Below, in pieces: positions 4,412 through 40,718 of a DNA stretch of 64,000 nucleotides. The stretch covers positions 761,001 to 825,000 of the forward strand of contig JAFCIZ010000002.1 of the NCBI GenBank assembly GCA_017871115.1, in the 5' to 3' direction. The notes under the pieces were generated by a model, which was given only the letters and a program-made list of their open reading frames with translations, ran no database searches and had not been told where the DNA came from. The translations under genes were made by a program, and so were the position numbers. Every line of letters starts with the position of its first letter. Positions within the stretch are counted from its first letter, which is position 1. The DNA is from Cunninghamella blakesleeana. Its lineage: Eukaryota > Mucoromycota > Mucoromycetes > Mucorales > Cunninghamellaceae.

Positions 4412-7400
4412 ATGCCCGTAGCAACACCAAGATCAACTCTAGAGACAGTTGAAGATTCACAAAATACGAATAGCGCACTTGTCAACGGTAATAATAATAA
4501 TATTCGTTCAGCAAATGAAGGAAACATACAACAAGATTATAATAAGTCAACAATTAGACATGGTTTCGATCAAGAAGTATTTGAAGAAGATATTATACGA
4601 TTCTTATATTATTCAGAAAAACGGCATGAAACTAATGCCAAACCTCATTCTATACCTCGTGGTACACTATTAGATTGGGTAAAGAAAAGATAAATATAAT
4701 AAACTGAAAATATATTATATATGACAAATTTGTATATTTGTATATATATACATATTTTATTTAAGAACAAATCATTTTTATCTATTACTAATAATAATAC
4801 CACTTTTTTCCTTTTATTTTATTAAAAATAGAGACTTCGTGAAAGGATTAAAACAGTTTCAGGTATACATGATATTTTTTTTATAATATAGTATAGTATG
4901 ATATATTATACTATATTATACTACGTATAACTTATATTGACACATATTGGTTATTGTTATTATTATTTATGTTTAGGTTTACTTGTGGTATGTTTAAATA
5001 TTGGTACTGATCCTCCTGATGTCGTTAAAACTAGTCCATGTGCCAAGCTTGAATGTTGGATTGACCCTTTTCTTGTCATTCCCCAAAAATCTTTGGAAAC
5101 CATTGGAAAAAATTTACATACTCAATATGAAAACATCAATAGTAGAACACGGTTTAAACTCTCTTTGGATCCATCGGTAGAAGAAACAAAAAAATTAAGT
5201 TGTCAAACTCGTAGAAATGCTAAAGAAGAACGAATTCTCTTTCATTATAATGGTCATGGTGTACCAAAACCCACAGCAAGTGGTGAAATCTGGGTGTTCA
5301 ATAGAAACTATACTCAATATATTCCAGTTTCCTTGTTTGATTTACAATCGTGGTTAGGCTCACCTGTGATTTATGTTTGGGATTGCTCTTCTGCTGGAAA
5401 TATTGTCAACGCATTTAATCGCTTTGCAGAACAACGTGATAATGAAGCTTTACGGCTTGCTCAACAACATCAAGGTAATGCACCTTCATCATCTTGGAAA
5501 GATTGTATCCAGCTTGCAGCTTGTGGACCTACAGAAACATTACCTATGAATCCCGATTTACCAGCTGATGTGTTTACTTCTTGTTTAACAACACCAATTG
5601 AAATGTCTTTAAGATGGGTGATTATGCGTAATCCTTTATTAACTTCTAATATAACTATGGATATGGTATTAAGATTACCTGGTTGTGCAAAAGAAAGAAG
5701 AACACCATTAGGGGAATTAAATTGGATATTTACAGCTGTAACTGATACAATTGCTTGGTGTGTTTTACAGGATCAACCTGAGTTATTTAAACGATTGTTT
5801 AGACAAGATCTGATGGTAGCTTCCATGTTTAGAAACTTTTTATTAGCTGAGCGTATAATGCGATCCTATCAATGTACACCAATCTCAACACCAAAATTAC
5901 CTGACACACATGATCACCCTATGTGGCAAGCATGGGACTTGGCAGTAGATATGTGCCTTTTTCAATTACCTGCTTTATTGGCTGCGGAAAACGGTGGAAC
6001 ACCTTACCAATACCAACCTAGTAGCTTTTTTGCGGAACAATTAACAGCTTTTGAAGTGTGGTTATCAGAAGGTGCAGTTAATCCAAAAATACCTGAGCAA
6101 CTTCCAATCGTATTACAAGTTCTTTTGAGTCAAGTGCATCGTCTCCGTGCTTTAATCTTACTTAGTCGATTTTTAGATCTTGGACCATGGGCAGTCAATG
6201 CAGCCTTATCAGTTGGTATCTTTCCTTATGTACTCAAATTATTACAAAGTCCCGCGGCCGAATTGAAACCTGTTTTGGTCTTTATTTGGGCTCGTATCTT
6301 GGCAGTAGATCGATCATGTCAAAACGATTTATTAAAGGACCATGGATATGCTTATTTTATCAATATTTTGACACCGAATAATGCTATGCTTAGTATTCCT
6401 CATGTATCAGAACATCGTGCCATGAGTGCCTTTATCTTATCTGTATTTTGTACGAATTTTAAAATGGGTCAACAAGCTTGTTTACGCGGTAATGTAATTG
6501 CAGCCTGTTTAGCCCATGTCAAAGACGCCGATCCATTATTACGTCAATGGGTATGTTTATGCTTAGCTCAAGTATGGATGAATAATAGTGAAGCCAAAGC
6601 TGCAGCCATTGCAGAAAATGGCCATGAAAAATTATGTGGTATGTTAACAGACAGTGTTCCTGAAGTGCGTGCCTCTGCTATGTATGCTCTTGGTACCTTC
6701 CTTGGTGATACAAATAAAACGGAACAAATTATTAATATTGAACATAATATCGCCATTGCTTCTTTAGTGGCTATGTCAGATGGATCACCTGTTGTTAGAA
6801 AAGAATTTGTTATTGCTTTATCACATGTAGTACATCAAGTTGGCCCTAATAAATTTTTATTAGCAGCAAGTCAAACTATAGATGAAGATCATCACCGTTC
6901 TATCAATGAAAACAATAGTCATGGGAAACCAAGAAAATTAAGTCGCCCCATTTCTTCTATGTTGGCGGAATTAAAAGCAAATAATGAAAATAATAATCAT
7001 TACAGTTCAACTAGTTTTGATTCAGTTTATGCTGTTATTTGGAAAGCTTTATTAAATTTATCGGTCGATCCTTTCCCAGAAGTAGCCAAATCGGCCGCTC
7101 TTGTCATTGATCATATCAATGCTATATTGCTTAGTACACCAACTATTGGCGAATATGCTTCTTCCATTGTACGTGAATCATTACAACAACAATTTAATAA
7201 TAACGACTCATTAAATTCACTTGGACAATTGGAAAATAATAGTAATAACAATAATAATACCCAACCTTCATCTTTATATAATAACCCGGATGATTCATCG
7301 TCTCCTAATCGTCCTACTAAATTAACGCGATCCGTCTCCTTTGCATCTACCCTTAGAACTATATATAATTTTGGAAATGCTACTGGACCTTCAGATCAGC

Positions 7401-9413
7401 CAGGTGTTGCAGCAGCGCCTAACACTGCTTCTTCCACATCAAACCATAAAGTTGTACCTAGATCAACTTCATCAGGATCACCACGTATAAGTAATTTAGG
7501 ATTAAATTCTGGTTCATCAACTGGTTTTGAAAATACAACTGCAAATAATGAAAATAGTGTTTTACCATTAACTTCGGAATTCTACGATTGGAGCTGTGAA
7601 TATTTCACTGAACCTCAAATGAGAGTAAGTTAATAATGATATAATATAATAAATAAACACATTGCAATATTTTTCGGAATATTTATTAAACCAAGTTGTA
7701 TATATATGATCATTACATAGGCTGCTGAATCAGATGAACCTGGAAGTATTGTTTATACCCAACGCAAATGGCGTCGTGGACGCAATGAAAAAATTTTAAT
7801 GGAAACAAACGCTACCAAGGTGATGGCAGGATCCAGCCGATGGGAAGAGCAAATTATTTCTGTGCATAATGAAACTGAAGCAACACATTTACTATTCCAC
7901 CAATATGAACCTCATCTTGTTGCATCTGATGCATATAATTGTTTAGTGTAAGTCTTTCCTTCTAATTATTTATATATTGACCTGATTTTCTTATATTTCT
8001 ATTTTCTTGTTTTTATTTTTGTAAATAATAGTGTTTGGAATTGGAAAACAGGTGAACCATTAAGTGTCATTGATAATCACAACCCTTCACAAAGTAGTAT
8101 AACAGATATGAAATTTATTAATGAAGATGATGTAGCTTTGTTATTAACAAGCTCAGGTAATCATTTTAAAATAATTTTATTTATGGATATGTACATACAC
8201 CCATATACATATATGAATGGCATTATTAATTTTTATTATTTATTATTTAATTTTATTTTTTAAAAAAAAGATGATGGAGTCGTTAGATTATATAAAAACT
8301 ATGATGGTAGTGAACAGGAAGAAGCTATTCTAGTTAGTTCATGGCGAGCTTTGAAATATATGGAAAAAAGTAATTCAAGGCAAAGTGGCCTTATTTGTGA
8401 ATGGCATCAAGGACGTGGAACCTTATTTACTGGTGGTGATGCAAGAGTGATTAAAGTTTGGGATGCACATCAAGAAATGTCAGTTATGGTAAGTCTTTTT
8501 CTTCTAACTTAAATATATATATATTTATTTATTTATTTTTATTATTTATAGGATATTGTAACTCAATCAACAGGATGTGTTACAAGTCTTACAAGTGATC
8601 AAATTAGTGGAGAAATTCTTATAGCTGGTTTTGGGGATGGATCAGTAGGGGTATATGATCGACGTTTAAGACCATCACATGCGTAAGCTTTAATATATAT
8701 AAATACACAAATAGTGGATATATTTATATTCAAAAAAAAAAAAACCACATTAATTATTTGACATTATTACTTTTTTTTTAAAATAATAATAATAATAATA
8801 ATAATAATAATTACAGATTGGTACGTCGATGGGATGAGCATGATGCCTGGGTTACTGGTGTTCATTTACAAAAGGATGGAAATCGTGAGCTTGTATCTGG
8901 TAGTTCAAATGGTGATATAAAAATATGGGATATTAGAGAATCACAATCAATTCGAACTATAGATGCACATAGCGATATGACTTCAATAGCTATACATGAT
9001 CATGCTCAAGTTATTGCTAGGTAATTAATATAAAAAAAGAAAGCACAAAATAACAACTGAAATTTTAAAAATATTATTGCTCATTTACTCGATATTAAAT
9101 ACTAACATATATTTATTTTATTTATGTAGTTCTGGAGATGATCATGTTATTAACTTTTGGAACATTGATGGAACAAAATTATCATCCGTTCGACCTTCAT
9201 CTGGATTTTTAGGCCAAAAAGGATCTTGTACAAGAGCATTATCATTTCATCCTAATCTTATGGTCTCTGCTGCAAGTAGCGATGATGGTTATATCACTGT
9301 AAGAAAATTAAAACTGTTAGAATATTAATGATAGCATATATCTAATAATATTTACTAATAACAAAATTATTCTAATTATTTTATTTTATTTATAGTTATA
9401 TGGAACTCATTAA
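4412..9413 (+). CDS. Raptor (Kog1/Mip1), TORC1 scaffold subunit
   Basis: Raptor recruits substrates to TOR kinase in TORC1. Ten exons fit: 4412-4678, 4832-4862, 4977-7624, 7721-7947, 8032-8156, 8271-8488, 8552-8682, 8817-9020, 9130-9298 and 9396-9413. They total 4038 nt, giving 1345 aa, which is a normal Raptor length. The N-terminus carries the raptor caspase-like fold: RHETNAKPHSIPRGTLLDW, GTDPPDVVKTSPCAKLECWIDP, RRNAKEERILFHYNGHGVP, EIWVFNRNYTQYIP and VIYVWDCSSAGNIV. HEAT-like repeats follow (VRKEFVIALSHVV and similar), then an Asn/Ser-rich linker, then seven-blade WD40 repeats (WDEHDAWVTGVHL, GDIKIWDIRESQSI). The last exon is only 18 nt (LYGTH and stop) and completes the final strand. The 31-nt second exon is required to restore TVSGLLVVCLN. 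The large third exon carries most of the protein. Confidence 0.95.
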
Positions 9414-33193: not shown

Positions 33194-33655
33194 AAATGAT
33201 CATCATTATTCTACCTATTTTTTATTTACTATTATAAATTAATAGTGTCGTGTTATATAGCATTTTATAAAAAATTTGATTAGTCGCTTGTTACCTGTGT
33301 GTTACCCTGTGTGCCTAACATGCCAGTATTTAATATAATCTAAATTTGATTAAAAAAGAAATTGAATTATAATACCAATGAAGTGGGTGGCATGAAAAAA
33401 GATGAAAAAATGATGGTAAAATAAATATATCAGATATAATAATTTTATTGATTAAAAAATATTACAAAATTAAAGAAAATTCTCAATTGTAACCTGCTCA
33501 AATTTAAAAATCTGAAGAAAAAAGACTGTATTTAAAAATATACGTGCTTTATATTTTTTAAATAAGCTTTATTCAATTCTCATTGTTTCTTTCAATTTTT
33601 TTAAAAATATATTACAATCATTACCATTGTTATTGTAGCAATATATTAGTAAATT

Positions 33656-33687
<32 letters not shown>

Positions 33688-34177
33688 TACTATAATAGCA
33701 ATAATAACAAATTAATTTTATTTACTGCTACTATTATATTATTTGTTTTTAAGCGATTTATTCTATTTTTATTAAAATATATTTATATACATATTGAGTA
33801 TTTTTATATTGGAAATAATAATACTAATAATTACAAGTCATTCAAAGGCGATATTATATTACAAGCGGACAAGGTACAATATACACAATAATAAGTAAAA
33901 TATATGAAGTTTGTTGCTATTATTATTAATATTTTGGTATAAACAGAGTAATGCCCATTATTGAGTACATTAATACATAAATAAAGACACAATGGTTTTT
34001 TATCCTTACCTATTGTTTTTTCAAACAATTGTTTATAAAAAACAAAAATTATTTTCTTTTTTATACATTCTTTTGTTTTTGTTATTACTATTATCATTAT
34101 TACTTTTCAATAACTTTTATCGACTATATCAATTATATTAAAGATAACTTTCTATTAAAATAATAATATTATCGTAC

Positions 34178-34455
34178 ATGTTCAACTACAAGCGATCAAT
34201 ATCTCGAGAAAATGTTTTTTCCAACCACAATAATAATTTTAAATTACCTTCTATATCTTCAACAAATCTTAAGCGTCAACGAACCAATTTTTGGCCAAGG
34301 TCAAGAATCTCAGTAATTGGTACAAAAAGAACTATTTCTCAACAGATATCTTCTAATAAACGCCATCTAATAAATAATGAAATAAATAATCAGTCAAAAG
34401 GTCAACCAAATAATATTCAACGTAAATTATAAAATAAAATAAAATAATATTTAGT

Positions 34456-34491
<36 letters not shown>

Positions 34492-36518
34492 CAAATTTCA
34501 ATGCTTTTATATTTAGGCTCTATCGCTTCTTCTTCTTCTCATTCTCAATCTGTTTCTGTTCCTCAAGCTATTAATAACACCTATAACGACACTTCTTTTG
34601 GAGCTTTTCAACATTTTACCAATAATAACCAAGCTAGCCCTCCTAGCAGTGGTGATACAGATGGTAAAGTAAAATATATAAATATAACATGCATATATGA
34701 CTATATAATTCAAAAATAACTAATTGATCTTTTATTTTATTTTTTATTTCGACTATAGATAGTGTTGATTTGGAAGATGATGGTGACTATTTTAGAGGTA
34801 TATTAATCTGATATTTTTTATTTATTTATTTATATATTTATATAACCTTATTTTATTTTAAAAAAAGAGCACACTTACTAACTTAATAAACTTTAGTACC
34901 TCTTAATTCTAGGAGAATTCGGGGCGTTCATGGCTTTACAATAAATACTGATGGAATTGTTTACACTGCAACTGGCATAAAAGCTGATCTTGATATTATT
35001 TGTGGAATTCCTTATGTATCCTTAGTAAACAATTATGATGAACAACGTGTTCCTCTGGAAGAAATTATGATAGATACTTTTATGCGTACTTTAGTTGATC
35101 ATGGCACTTTGAATAATTACGTACTAATACACCGCAATGGAGATAAAACGAACTGTAGTCTTAGTAATCTAGAACTACGTGAACTATTTCCACTTCAATC
35201 AAGAATTGATGTACCAGAGACACTCCCAGATGCATTTAAAATTGATATTTATGGAAATATTTATAAAGATAAACAACTTATAGAATCAATACATCATGAA
35301 ACTGGCCATTTTATCATTCCTTTCCAATACGACGATAATAAATACGATATACCTTGTAAACAATTGGTAATAGATTCTTTCTCTAATGGTTTTCAGCAAA
35401 AATATTATCGTATCGCTCATATAGATGGTGATGTACAAAATAACAGTTTATCTAATTTACGTTTTATGGATTCCGATAGTTTCGTAAAACATATGGCGCA
35501 AGTTTTTCAAAGGTTATACGGTCGTCATAAAGAAGAATTTCGATCTTTTATTGATATAGAATTTGATGATTATTTATACTCGTTTTCTAAAAAATACATT
35601 ATTACTAATTTGGGTGCAATTTACAATATCGAAGAAAATAGAATGGTAACGCCAATAACATTACCTTGCGGTTCCCTTGGTGTTGAATTGATTAGTGAAT
35701 CTAGAAGAAATAATGAATCAAAAAGTAAGGTGCTCCCTATTGATGAATTGGTCACTTTACATTTTATTGGGGAACAGCCGAATTATCATCGTATTCGCCA
35801 TATAAATAATAATGTAACAGACAACTCTATCACTAATCTGGACTATATTCCTGAATCTGAAGAGGCTTTCCTACCTACACCTAATGATATTCATTTGACA
35901 ATACCTACACCAAAATGGAAAACACCTAATTATCAAGTACATAATAATCTTATTATTGATAATAGGTTGCAACCTGACATATTTCTTAATGATGGTTGGA
36001 CAACACTTGACACTGTTCACGGCCTCACTTTTGAAAATTATTATATTTCGGCAAGAAAAGCTATCGTAATGAGTTTTGATGGAGAAACTGCATCATTATT
36101 ACCTATTAAACACCTTGGGAAAGGCTATAAAATAATAGAATTGTTTGATACTGAAGGAATAAAACATAAATTCTATGTTCATTTACTAATGGCCTGGAAG
36201 TTTTGTGAAGGCGAAAGTAACACCCGAAATATTATTTATTATAGGAATGGAGATAGGAATGATAATAGCTCAAGAAATTTAGAATGGCAGTCAATTAATG
36301 ACAATAGAATTGCAATTTTTGCAAGGCCTATAGTGATCACAGATGTAAACGATCCCCAAATAACTCAAACATATTCAACCATTGGAAAAGCTCAAGCTGA
36401 TCTCCCTTATAATTGCATTTATTATTGGCTGGGTGAAAGAGAATTTATTGCTACCATTAGTCGAGCATTTTGGAAGAATAAATGGAGAGTACTTTCACTT
36501 CAACGCCTAGATGAATAA
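34178..36518 (+). CDS. Gene A: tandem NUMOD4/HNH_3-like module protein (683 aa), function unknown
   Basis: Exons 34178-34421, 34517-34663, 34759-34797 and 34897-36518 total 2052 nt. Residues 1-143 are basic and disordered (start MFNYKRSISRENVF). The rest looks like four successive modules. Each has a NUMOD4-like strand (AFKIDIYGNIY, KYIITNLGAIYNI), a helix (PIDELVTLHFIG, PCKQLVIDSF) and an HNH_3-like segment: LIHRNGDKTNCSLSNLEL (H222, N229, N234), IAHIDGDVQNNSLSNLRF (H318, N326, N330), IRHINNNVTDNSITNLDY, IIYYRNGDRNDNSSRNLEW. Module 4 has Tyr in place of His, and the residue before His varies, so the canonical His-His/Asp-His pair is absent. The C-terminus (ITDVNDPQITQTYSTIGKAQ, later RAFWKNKWRVL) resembles NUMOD1. 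These modules normally occur once, in homing or phage HNH endonucleases. It is paralogous to gene B, 1.3 kb downstream. Inference: a DNA-binding protein, possibly nuclease-derived. Confidence 0.8.
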
Positions 36519-36606
36519 CAAAAAAAAATTTAATATAAAGGTAATTTTTCGTATATTTAACTTTTTTCTATTCATTTTATATAAATATAAATATATATCA
36601 TACAGT

Positions 36607-36653
<47 letters not shown>

Positions 36654-37657
36654 AACTAAATAAAGGACATGAATAATAATATAAAAACATTATACATAGT
36701 ATATGAAACCAAATAATATCCATTTTTTAACGAGATCTACGTTGCAATTATTAGTTTTTTCAGATAAACGAAAATTCTACAATTAGTTGTTTATCTTTGT
36801 AACTAAATTGTAATATAAAAATAACAGTAGTAACAAAAATACTCTACCAAAAAAAATACCATGAAATCCTCTAGTACAAATACTTGTAGTGTTGAATAAT
36901 TACTCGCAAGTTAAAAAACATATTAATAAAATATAGAATAAAATCAATCAAATTATTCATTTTATATGACCCTATACGCAAGAAAAAAACAAGAATTATT
37001 ATTCTTTCTCTTTTACAAAAAAAATAGCAAATAATTATGTGCACATAAAATAAAAGAAAAAAAAAAATTTTTTTTTTAAAAAAAAAGGTATGCAGAGAAA
37101 AAAAATATGCAGTTTTTACTAGAAAGGGAATGTTTCCATAAAGTTTCGGTGCTTAAATCTTTATGCGCTTAATTTTTTTATAAAAACTCTTTTTCATTGT
37201 TCTTTTCTTTAAGTTTTCTATAAATATATTTCCATCATTGTTATTTTTATTGTTATAGCATATTATTATATATACTATTGTTATAATAACATTAGTCTCT
37301 TTTCACTCACTGTTATCAATCTATTAATGATCTTTAAAACAATATATTTTATTTACTTATTTTTAAACATAACTTTCTAATATATATAAAGTACTTTCAC
37401 GTTAGAAAATAACGATAATGGACTTTACGAGATGTTCAAAATGAAGACTAAATTATATTACAAACTCACACTATATATTATATACTATAACAATTAAGGA
37501 ATATGACGCTTATTATTATTGTTTTTATTTTTGTATAAACAAAATGATAAAAACGTAAATATATATAAAAGCTCACTGTTTCTTTATTTAATCAGTATTA
37601 AGCTCAATAATGAACCCCAAATAGTTATATATATAAACAATATTCCTTTATCGTCTT

Positions 37658-37700
<43 letters not shown>

Positions 37701-37800
37701 TATAAATTCACTTTTATTATTATTATCTACACGTTTATTCAGTAGATTTTATTAATTATAACAATTTTATTTTACTTTATTTAAAAAAATATAACTACAC
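36519..37800. other. Spacer between paralogues A and B, contains B's duplicated upstream DNA
   Basis: 1.28 kb, AT-rich. A long T run followed directly by a long A run spans about 36608-36655. From about 37150 it aligns with 33500-34177 upstream of gene A, for example ATTATATTACAA at about 33850/37453 and TTTTTGTATAAAC at about 37528 against TTTTGGTATAAAC upstream of A. The last bases before the ATG are almost identical (ACATGTTCAACTA). No gene is seen. Confidence 0.5.
36608..36655. repeat. Back-to-back poly-T / poly-A tract
   Basis: About 26 T are followed immediately by about 22 A, a perfect self-complementary homopolymer tract. Shorter versions occur elsewhere (26008-26034, 37063-37087). 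Confidence 0.9.
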
Positions 37801-40234
37801 ATGTTCAACTATAAACGAGCAAGACCACGTTCACCATTATCTAGTAACTCAAATAGTCGACGACATACATCATCTAGTAAACGCAAATATCAACAATGTA
37901 CACCAACTAATAATGCAAGTCTCCAAAAAGTATCATCAAATAATAATCTAAATCATCAGCAGCAGAGTTTGCTTAACAATACAACACAGCAATCACTCCT
38001 ACTATCTAGTAATTCACGTGGATATGAAAATACCCCAGTTCCTATTGACACCCATAAAGATTATTTTAAAGGAGGACCTCGACCTATATTAGCAAGAAAT
38101 AGTCTTTATTTTGCCTATACTTCAAGAGCAATCACTCCAGGGGGTAGTTTAAAAAGAAAAACTATTGAATGTATAAATATTTCCAAACGACGTAGGCTAT
38201 ATCAAAAATTAGCTGAATCATATATCTGTGATGGTAACTTTTATAAAACAAAATAGAATAAAAACAGCATATATATATATATATATAATGTTGTTAATAC
38301 TAATAATTCATATCATATTATAGCCAATAGCTAATACTAATATGAATACCTTTCTTTTAATACTATCCAATTTCATTTATAGCTAATCCGCCTAGTCCTA
38401 TTGGTAAAATGAATTAAATAATCATATTTCATTATTATTATTAATTTTATAAATAAAAATTACTAACTAATACACTTTATAATATTTTTATATTTTATTT
38501 TAGGTACTCATGGCTTTTATGATAGAATGCATCGGAGAGGTATCTAAATTTATGCACACACACACATACATACTAATATATAATAAAAAAATAATAACAA
38601 ACTTATTAATATAAAAAATAGTTCCTGTTATTTCTAGAATCTTTAACAACACTTATGGCTATTTAATTGACACAAATGGAAATGTTTACACATCTAATAA
38701 AGAGTTACTTCCTCGTATTGGTACTGGACTTGCTACTGTATATATAAGAGAACATAATGTTCATGTGCCTATTGATGAAATGATGGTGGACACTTTTTTA
38801 TACAACCATTTTGAAGTAGCCAGAGCAGATAATTATTACATATTACACATTAACGGGGATCCAGCTGATTCTACACTTAATAATCTACAACTACGGCAAC
38901 TATTTCCAATTAAAACTAGACGTGATAAAACTGCACCAACTATAGCAGATCATGAGCGACAAACAGCAAACCATTCAATTCCTGGACATTATAGAATTGA
39001 TAAATTTGGAATTACCTACGATCACAAATGCCCTGTTACACCACAAATCACTGATAATGGTCACTTTGTGATGGTTTTTAATTATATATATAATGGGACA
39101 TACTATAACTATTCTATACCGATTAAAGAACTAATGGCAGATACTTTTTTAAATGGAATTCAGCATCAGCATCAAACAATTGTTCATATAGATCGCAACA
39201 TAGATAATAATAGACTAACTAATTTATGTTTGATGGACCATGTTAGATTTACTCATCAAGAATTAAAATATTTACAAGAATTATATGGCCATAATGGAGA
39301 AGAATTTCGTCGTATAGAAAATGTAATCCTCAAAAATAAACGGCTAAATTACGGTGACAAATATTTAGTATCAAACAAAGGGAAGGTCTACTCGCTGCTA
39401 TCATTAAGATTGCTATCATCCTTTGTTTTGAAAGATGGGTGTCTTGGCGTTACTTTAACAAGAACTAATGAATATCAAGAACTAATAAAAGACTATATTC
39501 CTGTTGATATTCTAGTTGCTTCAACTTTTATTGGGACAATTCCTCCTGATCATCATGTTCGTTATATTACTCCTAATTATCTTAACCCTTCATTGGACAA
39601 TCTGGATTATTTTCCTAATTCTGAAGTAGCTTACATGCCCCGAGATACTGATCGTTTACAAACAATTCAAGAAAGTGTTGCATCTAGAGATTGGCCTAAC
39701 GAAACAAATCAATGGGTAAACCTTGGATATTTAAATAATCATGATTTTACACACTATCGACTATCAAATCAAGGACAAATCATAGATACTAGAATTCAGA
39801 ATGAATATCATGTTTATACAAAATATAGAAACGGATATATCACGTGTAATTTATATGACAGCACTAATACTCTTCATGAATTTTATATACATCGATTAAT
39901 AGCTATCTATTTTTGTCGTGGTCGATCCTACTCTTGTAATACAGTTCAACATCTTGATGGCAACCCTTCAAATAATAACTCATTAAATTTATTATGGACG
40001 GGTATCTCTGAAAGTTCAACAGCACCTTTAGGAATACCTCTTATCATTACTGATGTCTACCAAACTGATTTATTCCAACGATACAATTCTATTGGGCGCG
40101 CTCAGGCAGATTTCCCTTGTAATAATCTTTATTTTTGGTTATTTAGAGTTACTAAAGAAGTTATTATTAGGAATGCTTTTTGGAAAGATCAATGGAGAAC
40201 TGTAAGAGTCAATTTAATCGTAGAAGATTTATAA
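37801..40234 (+). CDS. Gene B: tandem NUMOD4/HNH_3-like module protein (700 aa), paralogue of gene A
   Basis: Exons 37801-38233, 38383-38403 (21 nt), 38504-38539 (36 nt) and 38622-40234 total 2103 nt. The N-terminus MFNYKRARPRSPLSSNSNSR shares the first six residues with gene A and is basic, Ser/Asn/Gln-rich. The four modules correspond one-to-one with those of A: YGYLIDTNGNVYTS with ILHINGDPADSTLNNLQL; HYRIDKFGITYDH with IVHIDRNIDNNRLTNLCL; KYLVSNKGKVYSL with VRYITPNYLNPSLDNLDY; HYRLSNQGQIIDT with VQHLDGNPSNNNSLNLLW. Here module 3 has lost the His (Tyr) and module 4 keeps it, the reverse of gene A in module 4. The C-terminal block IITDVYQTDLFQRYNSIGRA, ending FWKDQWRTV, is NUMOD1-like and well conserved with A. 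Intron positions and phases (all phase 1) match A apart from exon length. Overall divergence from A is large, so the duplication is old. Confidence 0.8.
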
Positions 40235-40718
40235 TTTTTTTTATTGTTATACATATATACACAAGTTTATGTATTTACATTTATATCATCTATATTTATA
40301 TTTTATAGTTTTTTATTTTTAATCTTTTTTATTTCTACTTTTATAATAAAAATGGAAAATACTGCATTTCAGAATATAAATAAAGAGCATACTATATATT
40401 TGCTATTATTATAAACCAATAATATTTTGTTATTACGTTTTATCACTATAATGTTACTCTTTACCTACATCATCTTGAAACATAAACATTGTAATTTTTA
40501 TACTAAAAAAAAGAAGAGAGCCTTTTTACTTAATTTATTATAGATAAGTACGTTACATGATTCATTCGATTTTTAAAAAAAAATACACGAGTTTTTTTCT
40601 TTTTTCTTTTTCTTTTTCTTTTTTTTTTTTAATTGCTTTATTCTACTGATAATTCTTGAAGTAGATCTAGTTTATATATAATAGGAAAATAAAAGTTAAT
40701 ATGTAATGGTAAAAACAT
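40235..40718. other. Convergent gap between gene B and CCH1
   Basis: 484 nt. It contains the right copy of the 20-mer CATTTCAGAATATAAATAAA and T-rich blocks. No gene is seen. Confidence 0.5.
40365..40384 (+). repeat. 20-bp direct repeat, right copy
   Basis: Exact copy of 33174-33193, 7191 nt away. That is close to twice the 3623-nt offset between the two paralogous start codons. Confidence 0.7.

Follow-up and report, generated by a model that had tools for sequence, protein, structure and literature searches.

Tandem HNH-like genes with no complete catalytic site, and a paralogue with two, in the fungus Cunninghamella blakesleeana

Introduction

Within a 64,000-nt stretch of the Cunninghamella blakesleeana genome (contig JAFCIZ010000002.1, positions 761,001 to 825,000; called the window here, with positions counted from its first letter), two neighbouring genes, A and B, encode proteins built of repeated HNH-like modules, and the question raised by this locus is whether such proteins still cut DNA and, if they do not, what they are. 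An earlier note, made from the sequence alone, had put the pair forward as a candidate for an undescribed system. The reading towards which we lean is that A and B descend from a multi-module viral-type HNH endonuclease, that they are catalytically dead but have been retained, and that they probably bind DNA.

Modules, fold and catalytic residues

A and B contain four modules each of the I-HmuI type (NUMOD4/HNH_3), as does a third paralogue, C, located on another contig. Whole-protein scores against Pfam HNH_3 (PF13392) are 64.1 bits for A and 54.6 bits for B (cut-off 24.8), in four stretches each, and the modules of both have the predicted fold of an I-HmuI module, I-HmuI being their sole convincing match among solved structures; in a fold search of the PDB library nothing besides I-HmuI and I-PpoI rose above noise, and other folds remain compatible. 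The HNH-like, multi-module character given to the pair in the earlier note is thereby borne out, whereas the idea of an undescribed system has to be given up: the modules belong to a curated, I-HmuI-like family, and the system is of a known kind.

I-HmuI is described as an intron-encoded HNH nickase of Bacillus phage SPO1 (PDB 1U3E) with the catalytic residues D74, H75 and N96 (PMC12724721, PMC3428280). Residue columns were set by alignment with 1U3E, and the modules are listed below with their residues at positions 74, 75 and 87, followed where given by that at position 96.

34905..35183, + strand: gene A module 1, I H N
35205..35492, + strand: gene A module 2, A H N, F at 96
35559..35870, + strand: gene A module 3, R H N, E at 96
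35994..36311, + strand: gene A module 4, Y Y N, N at 96
36312..36515, + strand: gene A C-terminal tail, strand-strand-helix-helix-strand-strand; likened to NUMOD1 solely for its position and predicted structure
38630..38899, + strand: gene B module 1, L H N
38960..39256, + strand: gene B module 2, V H N
39332..39634, + strand: gene B module 3, R Y N
39710..40021, + strand: gene B module 4, Q H N, S at 96; sequence match to I-HmuI 1U3E (E 6.6e-8)
40022..40231, + strand: gene B C-terminal tail, likened to NUMOD1 solely for its position and predicted structure

A module was counted as complete if it had D or N at position 74, H at 75, N at 87 and N or H at 96, where N87, the conserved Asn of the motif, was added as our own choice and position 96 was read directly from the sequence wherever the profile left it blank. 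None of the eight modules of A and B has a complete site, because position 74 is neither D nor N in any of them; for those whose position 96 was blank in the profile, direct reading gives no N there. D74 and N96 are both missing in seven of the eight, and the eighth, module 4 of A, is without D74 and H75. The modules of C, in contrast, read F/L/N, I/H/N, D/H/N/N and D/H/N/N, so that two of the four (modules 3 and 4) are complete and combine D74, H75 and N96, a combination found in no module of A or B. This difference between the pair and its paralogue had been missed in the earlier note. P0080, which is 98% identical to A, shows the losses too, as do the three modules detected in P0001, the orthologue of B from C. 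echinulata. As no complete site is left in them, A and B are most likely catalytically dead, while C may possibly be an active nickase. Both A and B have R at position 74 of module 3, a hint that this module was inactive before the duplication.

Among non-fungal relatives, 220 of the 257 modules examined are complete; this set is what remained after 7 gap-rich modules out of 264 had been dropped (a number obtained by subtraction), and 21 of its modules, with no aligned residue at position 96, were scored as incomplete. The 160 IMG/VR loci that were included had been gathered with patterns containing the catalytic DH/NH stretch, so that their completeness is partly built in; the protein-search set (86 proteins with 172 modules, 138 of them complete) is fairer, yet was also retrieved by shared words. 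When modules with more than 40 gaps are excluded, at least one complete module is retained by all 68 multi-module proteins from the protein searches and by four of five multi-module IMG/VR open reading frames (ORFs), the exception being L170.

A third paralogue and other relatives

Using the long exons of A and B as queries against the genome (31.9 Mb in 12 contigs, with the window on contig C2), each query lists at least three places, namely A, B and one on contig C10; a search with the HNH_3 domain gives at least four, two in C and two in A. Gene C lies on the minus strand of the C10 locus (L011) with exons 5261-5243, 5163-4816 and 4714-3429 and phase-1 introns, the second of which separates modules 1 and 2, and it encodes 550 aa, the same length as P0009. 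Orthologues in C. echinulata were found for B (P0001) and for C (P0008 and P0009), with 83-93% identity; no other named fungal relatives were obtained by protein search, which depends on shared five-residue words. The genome-wide count called for in the earlier note therefore stands at three members or more: the pair is real but is not the whole family, since the third paralogue lies on a separate contig.

Next to gene C, two other genes were observed. L011:6040-9875, head to head with it, is a strongly diverged type II topoisomerase-like gene, pieces of which match the topoisomerase II chains 1bgw (E 2.8e-17) and 1pvg (E 1.2e-10) and in which the EGDS motif reads EGTN (stronger matches to this family lie on contig C11), and L011:1379-1960, adjoining gene C on the minus strand, belongs to the CAP superfamily (cysteine-rich secretory proteins).

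Gene models and duplication with upstream DNA

Exon models of A and B were built computationally from GT..AG sites, resulting in gene A at 34178-36518 (676 aa) and gene B at 37801-40234 (700 aa), in tandem on the + strand, with four exons and three GT..AG introns each, all six introns being in phase 1.

34178..34400, + strand: gene A exon 1 (spliced model, GT..AG, phase 1; composition), MFNYKR start and S/N/Q-rich N-terminal extension
34517..34663, + strand: gene A exon 2 (spliced model), low-complexity extension
34759..34797, + strand: gene A exon 3 (spliced model)
34897..36518, + strand: gene A exon 4 (spliced model, module mapping), four modules and C-terminal tail, including the stop
37801..38233, + strand: gene B exon 1 (spliced model, composition, P0001), MFNYKR start and basic S/N/Q-rich extension
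38383..38403, + strand: gene B exon 2 (spliced model; P0001 matches the junction residues), a 21-nt micro-exon
38504..38539, + strand: gene B exon 3 (spliced model, P0001), 36 nt
38622..40234, + strand: gene B exon 4 (spliced model, module mapping), four modules and C-terminal tail, including the stop
33532..34171, + strand: upstream DNA of A, homologous to that of B (local alignment score 868)
37153..37797, + strand: upstream DNA of B, homologous to that of A (local alignment)

The shared MFNYKR start, the offset of 3623 between the start codons, the four exons, the phase-1 introns and the four modules, all reported in the earlier note, were recovered in these models, and so was the large divergence of the two proteins: the long exons, open from stop to stop over 542 codons in A and 539 in B, align end to end with 31% identity (BLASTP, 566 columns, E 6e-85), and the spliced proteins share 34% identity over 628 codons. 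The N-terminal extensions, S/N/Q-rich in both, are probably disordered, and that of B basic. P0001, an annotated protein, crosses the three exon junctions of B identically; it is without 44 residues inside module 2 of B, where its model implies an extra intron. These residues correspond to an in-frame 132-nt GT..AG stretch at window 39060-39191, which is either an alternative, exitron-like splice or an annotation artefact.

The homology of the pair extends to about 640 nt before each start codon. The Smith-Waterman score of 868 between the two upstream regions exceeds the maximum of 300 dinucleotide shuffles (652; mean 538.9, s.d. 32.9) as well as the background maxima of 504 and 516 from 65 AT-rich pieces of the window per strand, and the claim of the earlier note that at least 600 nt of upstream DNA was duplicated together with the genes is upheld by these controls. 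It is the colinear score that discriminates here, and not percent identity (0.717 against a mean of 0.698 in 60 shuffles at 18% GC). No homology between the flanks of A and B was found further upstream or downstream, nor with DNA in front of gene C, and as it is confined to the gene and these 640 nt, the duplicated unit would be a gene with its putative promoter. Two other explanations of the similarity were rejected, namely mere AT-richness, which the score surpasses in all shuffles and background pieces, and a dispersed repeat, as the further genomic matches listed are short and centred on the TA-rich stretch of this upstream DNA.

The ORFs neighbouring A and B match ordinary fungal families or nothing; one of them, at window 4931-7633, has Raptor_N and HEAT-repeat domains and is a Raptor-like housekeeping gene. 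Just 3' of gene A, at 36605-36660, a long T run is followed directly by a long A run, for which hairpin formation is possible.

Selection on A and B

To leave both frames open after such divergence is not expected of unselected DNA: simulated change at 0.1, 0.25 and 0.55 substitutions per site (60 runs each) introduces on average 8, 17 and 28 in-frame stops into A and 11, 20 and 33 into B, and even at 0.1 per site every one of the 60 runs yields at least 3 stops in A or at least 6 in B, where the real frames have none. With dS at about 1.1, this supports the retention of both genes, as had been proposed. The dN/dS comparison suggested at the same time could be made for A and B (0.69/1.11 by NG86), and, being near saturation, it says little. 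Other measures are uneven. In B, fewer changes are found from module 1 onward than in the N-terminus (34/490 vs 25/166, P 0.003), and the substitution spectrum of C against P0009 is conservative (P 0.0002), that of C against P0008 weakly so (P 0.075), all spectra being judged against a simple AT-biased mutation model, and the annotated orthologues being open frames through the choice of annotation. Taken together, the evidence for constraint on A and B is mixed.

A number of points weigh against the reading of A and B as retained, catalytically dead proteins. The spectrum of B against P0001 equals the mutational null (mean BLOSUM62 -0.42 vs -0.43), and that of A against P0080, with 11 substitutions, is not significant (P 0.14). 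The sites are not wholly erased, since six of the eight modules keep H75, the general-base position, and all eight keep N87; the importance of the individual residues is transferred from I-HmuI to modules of low identity (26% for module 4 of A), and the relatives scored for completeness came from searches that favour conserved motifs. Finally, Pfam NUMOD1 has no match in A or B, and the NUMOD1-like nature of their tails is a matter of position and prediction.

The near-neutral spectrum of B is what would be expected if A, B and C were remnants of a homing cycle, i.e., derived from a selfish free-standing HNH endonuclease of which C is, or recently was, active, while A and B decay without a host function. 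That A and B, unlike C, have lost catalytic residues, and that the neighbouring ORFs match ordinary fungal families or nothing, would also fit. We nevertheless regard this as unlikely: the frames are open where the simulations predict stops, the R74 common to module 3 of both copies hints at inactivity older than the duplication, and the colinear upstream DNA is still recognisable.

The persistence of H75 and N87, together with a fold close to that of I-HmuI, could instead mean that A and B are active with a rearranged site, in which another acidic residue (e.g., in an HIDGD-type stretch) substitutes for D74. This appears distinctly improbable to us, given that seven modules have lost both D74 and N96, and module 4 of A both D74 and H75, all of them residues which PMC12724721 names for I-HmuI, and that a canonical site is present in every one of the 68 non-fungal multi-module proteins which the protein searches yielded.

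Comparison with known systems and origin

Compared with I-HmuI, whose match spans one module and which is intron-encoded with D74, H75 and N96 intact, A and B comprise four modules each, lack a complete site and have GT..AG introns. Their number of modules and predicted tail structure agree with the layout of the multi-module HNH proteins of giant viruses, but neither of them matches Pfam NUMOD1. Proteins of Klosneuvirus KNV1 (A0A1V0SJK4, 527 aa; the best viral fold match for both A and B) and Marseillevirus LCMAC101 (A0A481YQZ2, 513 aa) are the top two fold matches of A and B and align over their full length, with 14-18% identity and whole-length TM-scores that are low owing to the flexible arrangement of modules. 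Among the 50 viral fold matches listed for each, 31 for A and 32 for B are Nucleocytoviricota by name, 4 and 4 phage, and 15 and 14 unnamed; the assignment is our own reading of organism names, and the counts depend on the content of the library. A siphovirus protein ranks third for B and fourth for A.

HNH homing endonucleases in the introns of giant viruses are described in PMC5871332, and a 1.5-Mb endogenous giant-virus region of Rhizophagus irregularis in PMC10640383. Judged by fold, a giant-virus ancestry is likely. A phage donor is possible, as long phage proteins are also present in the fold lists (Siphoviridae ctX5W26, 497 aa; phage Goslar, 490 aa). By sequence, no four-module relative was found in phages: among 50,697 phage records, B had no match at E 1e-5 and C matched 379, but in no case did the match cover more than 80% of C. 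In the 160 IMG/VR loci (the best 80 of each of two capped candidate lists, trimmed to flanks), the ORFs seen had at most two modules. A genome search for the endogenous giant-virus hallmarks PF04451 and PF04947 gave no match, and since its controls gave none either, this negative does not speak for absence. Rfam at the gathering score gave no match in the window or in L011.

A tree of 120 modules was built from those of the fungal proteins A, B, C and P0009, all those of proteins with at least three modules, and 60 others drawn randomly; its relatives carry no organism names, and the named giant-virus sequences were reached by fold only. Each module of A pairs with the module at the corresponding position in B (supports 0.89-0.94). 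Module 4 of the two proteins falls into a clade of nine (0.91), together with the last modules of P0014, P0018, P0002, P0045, P0005 and P0004 and the middle module of the three-module P0003. Of these, the metagenomic P0002 and P0014 have the layout of C, with two degenerate modules followed by two complete ones, and show NUMOD1 matches (in P0002 within the tail); they differ from A and B in having two complete sites each where A and B have none.

The first two modules of A and B cluster with module 2 of C and its P0009 orthologue (0.96), a group to which the third modules of A and B attach (0.85); module 3 of C belongs to a wider clade around the last modules, including A/B module 4 (0.85), and C module 4 goes with P0014 module 3 (0.51). 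There is thus no position-for-position match between C and A/B in modules 3 and 4, which either tells against the simple copying of one four-module ancestor or reflects the low resolution of 100 columns. The same mismatch bears on whether A and B could be immunity or competitor proteins that occupy the recognition site of C as an active HNH nickase. Four modules in each of the three proteins, the well-supported clade formed with C module 2, and the two complete sites of C are in keeping with it; C, however, lies on a contig other than that of A and B, and the unpaired modules 3 and 4 make a common specificity doubtful, so that we consider this very improbable.

Conclusions

In conclusion, for A and B as retained, non-cutting proteins we propose the following course of events. 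The family would have split into a C lineage with working-looking sites, C itself perhaps acting as a nickase with two of them, and an A/B lineage in which the metal-binding positions were lost and the fold kept; the ancestral gene of the pair, its introns already present, would then have been duplicated in tandem along with about 0.64 kb of upstream DNA, and both copies retained. Because the metal positions are gone while the fold is kept, A and B probably bind DNA without cutting it, and they are predicted to do so along an extended site, as regulators or site-occupiers. The order of these events, a nuclear location and a regulatory role are what we infer. A more far-reaching version, to which we give little credence, is that Cunninghamella recruited a giant-virus-type multi-module homing endonuclease, that the A/B lineage turned into nuclear regulators which recognise long modular sites sequence-specifically and do not cut them, and that the sister C has remained active as a nuclear nickase and may be a resident homing element which A and B keep in check.

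For such a recruitment, the AP2/ERF factors of plants offer an analogy only, in that PMC5318435 reports that HNH homing endonucleases contain AP2 domains, along with a hypothesis of transfer; homology of these factors with A or B was not seen, nor was a search aimed at it made. In the open-licence literature, no paper was found with both 'Cunninghamella' and 'HNH', and no record in print of a dead-looking four-module form retained beside an intact paralogue in a fungus. If the reading of A and B as retained, catalytically dead proteins is true, this would be a fungal domestication of a viral or phage-type HNH endonuclease, in which one paralogue keeps its active sites and two have lost them, and it would provide a system in which the transition from selfish nuclease to host DNA-binding protein can be directly tested, as well as more evidence for genes left in fungi by large DNA viruses.

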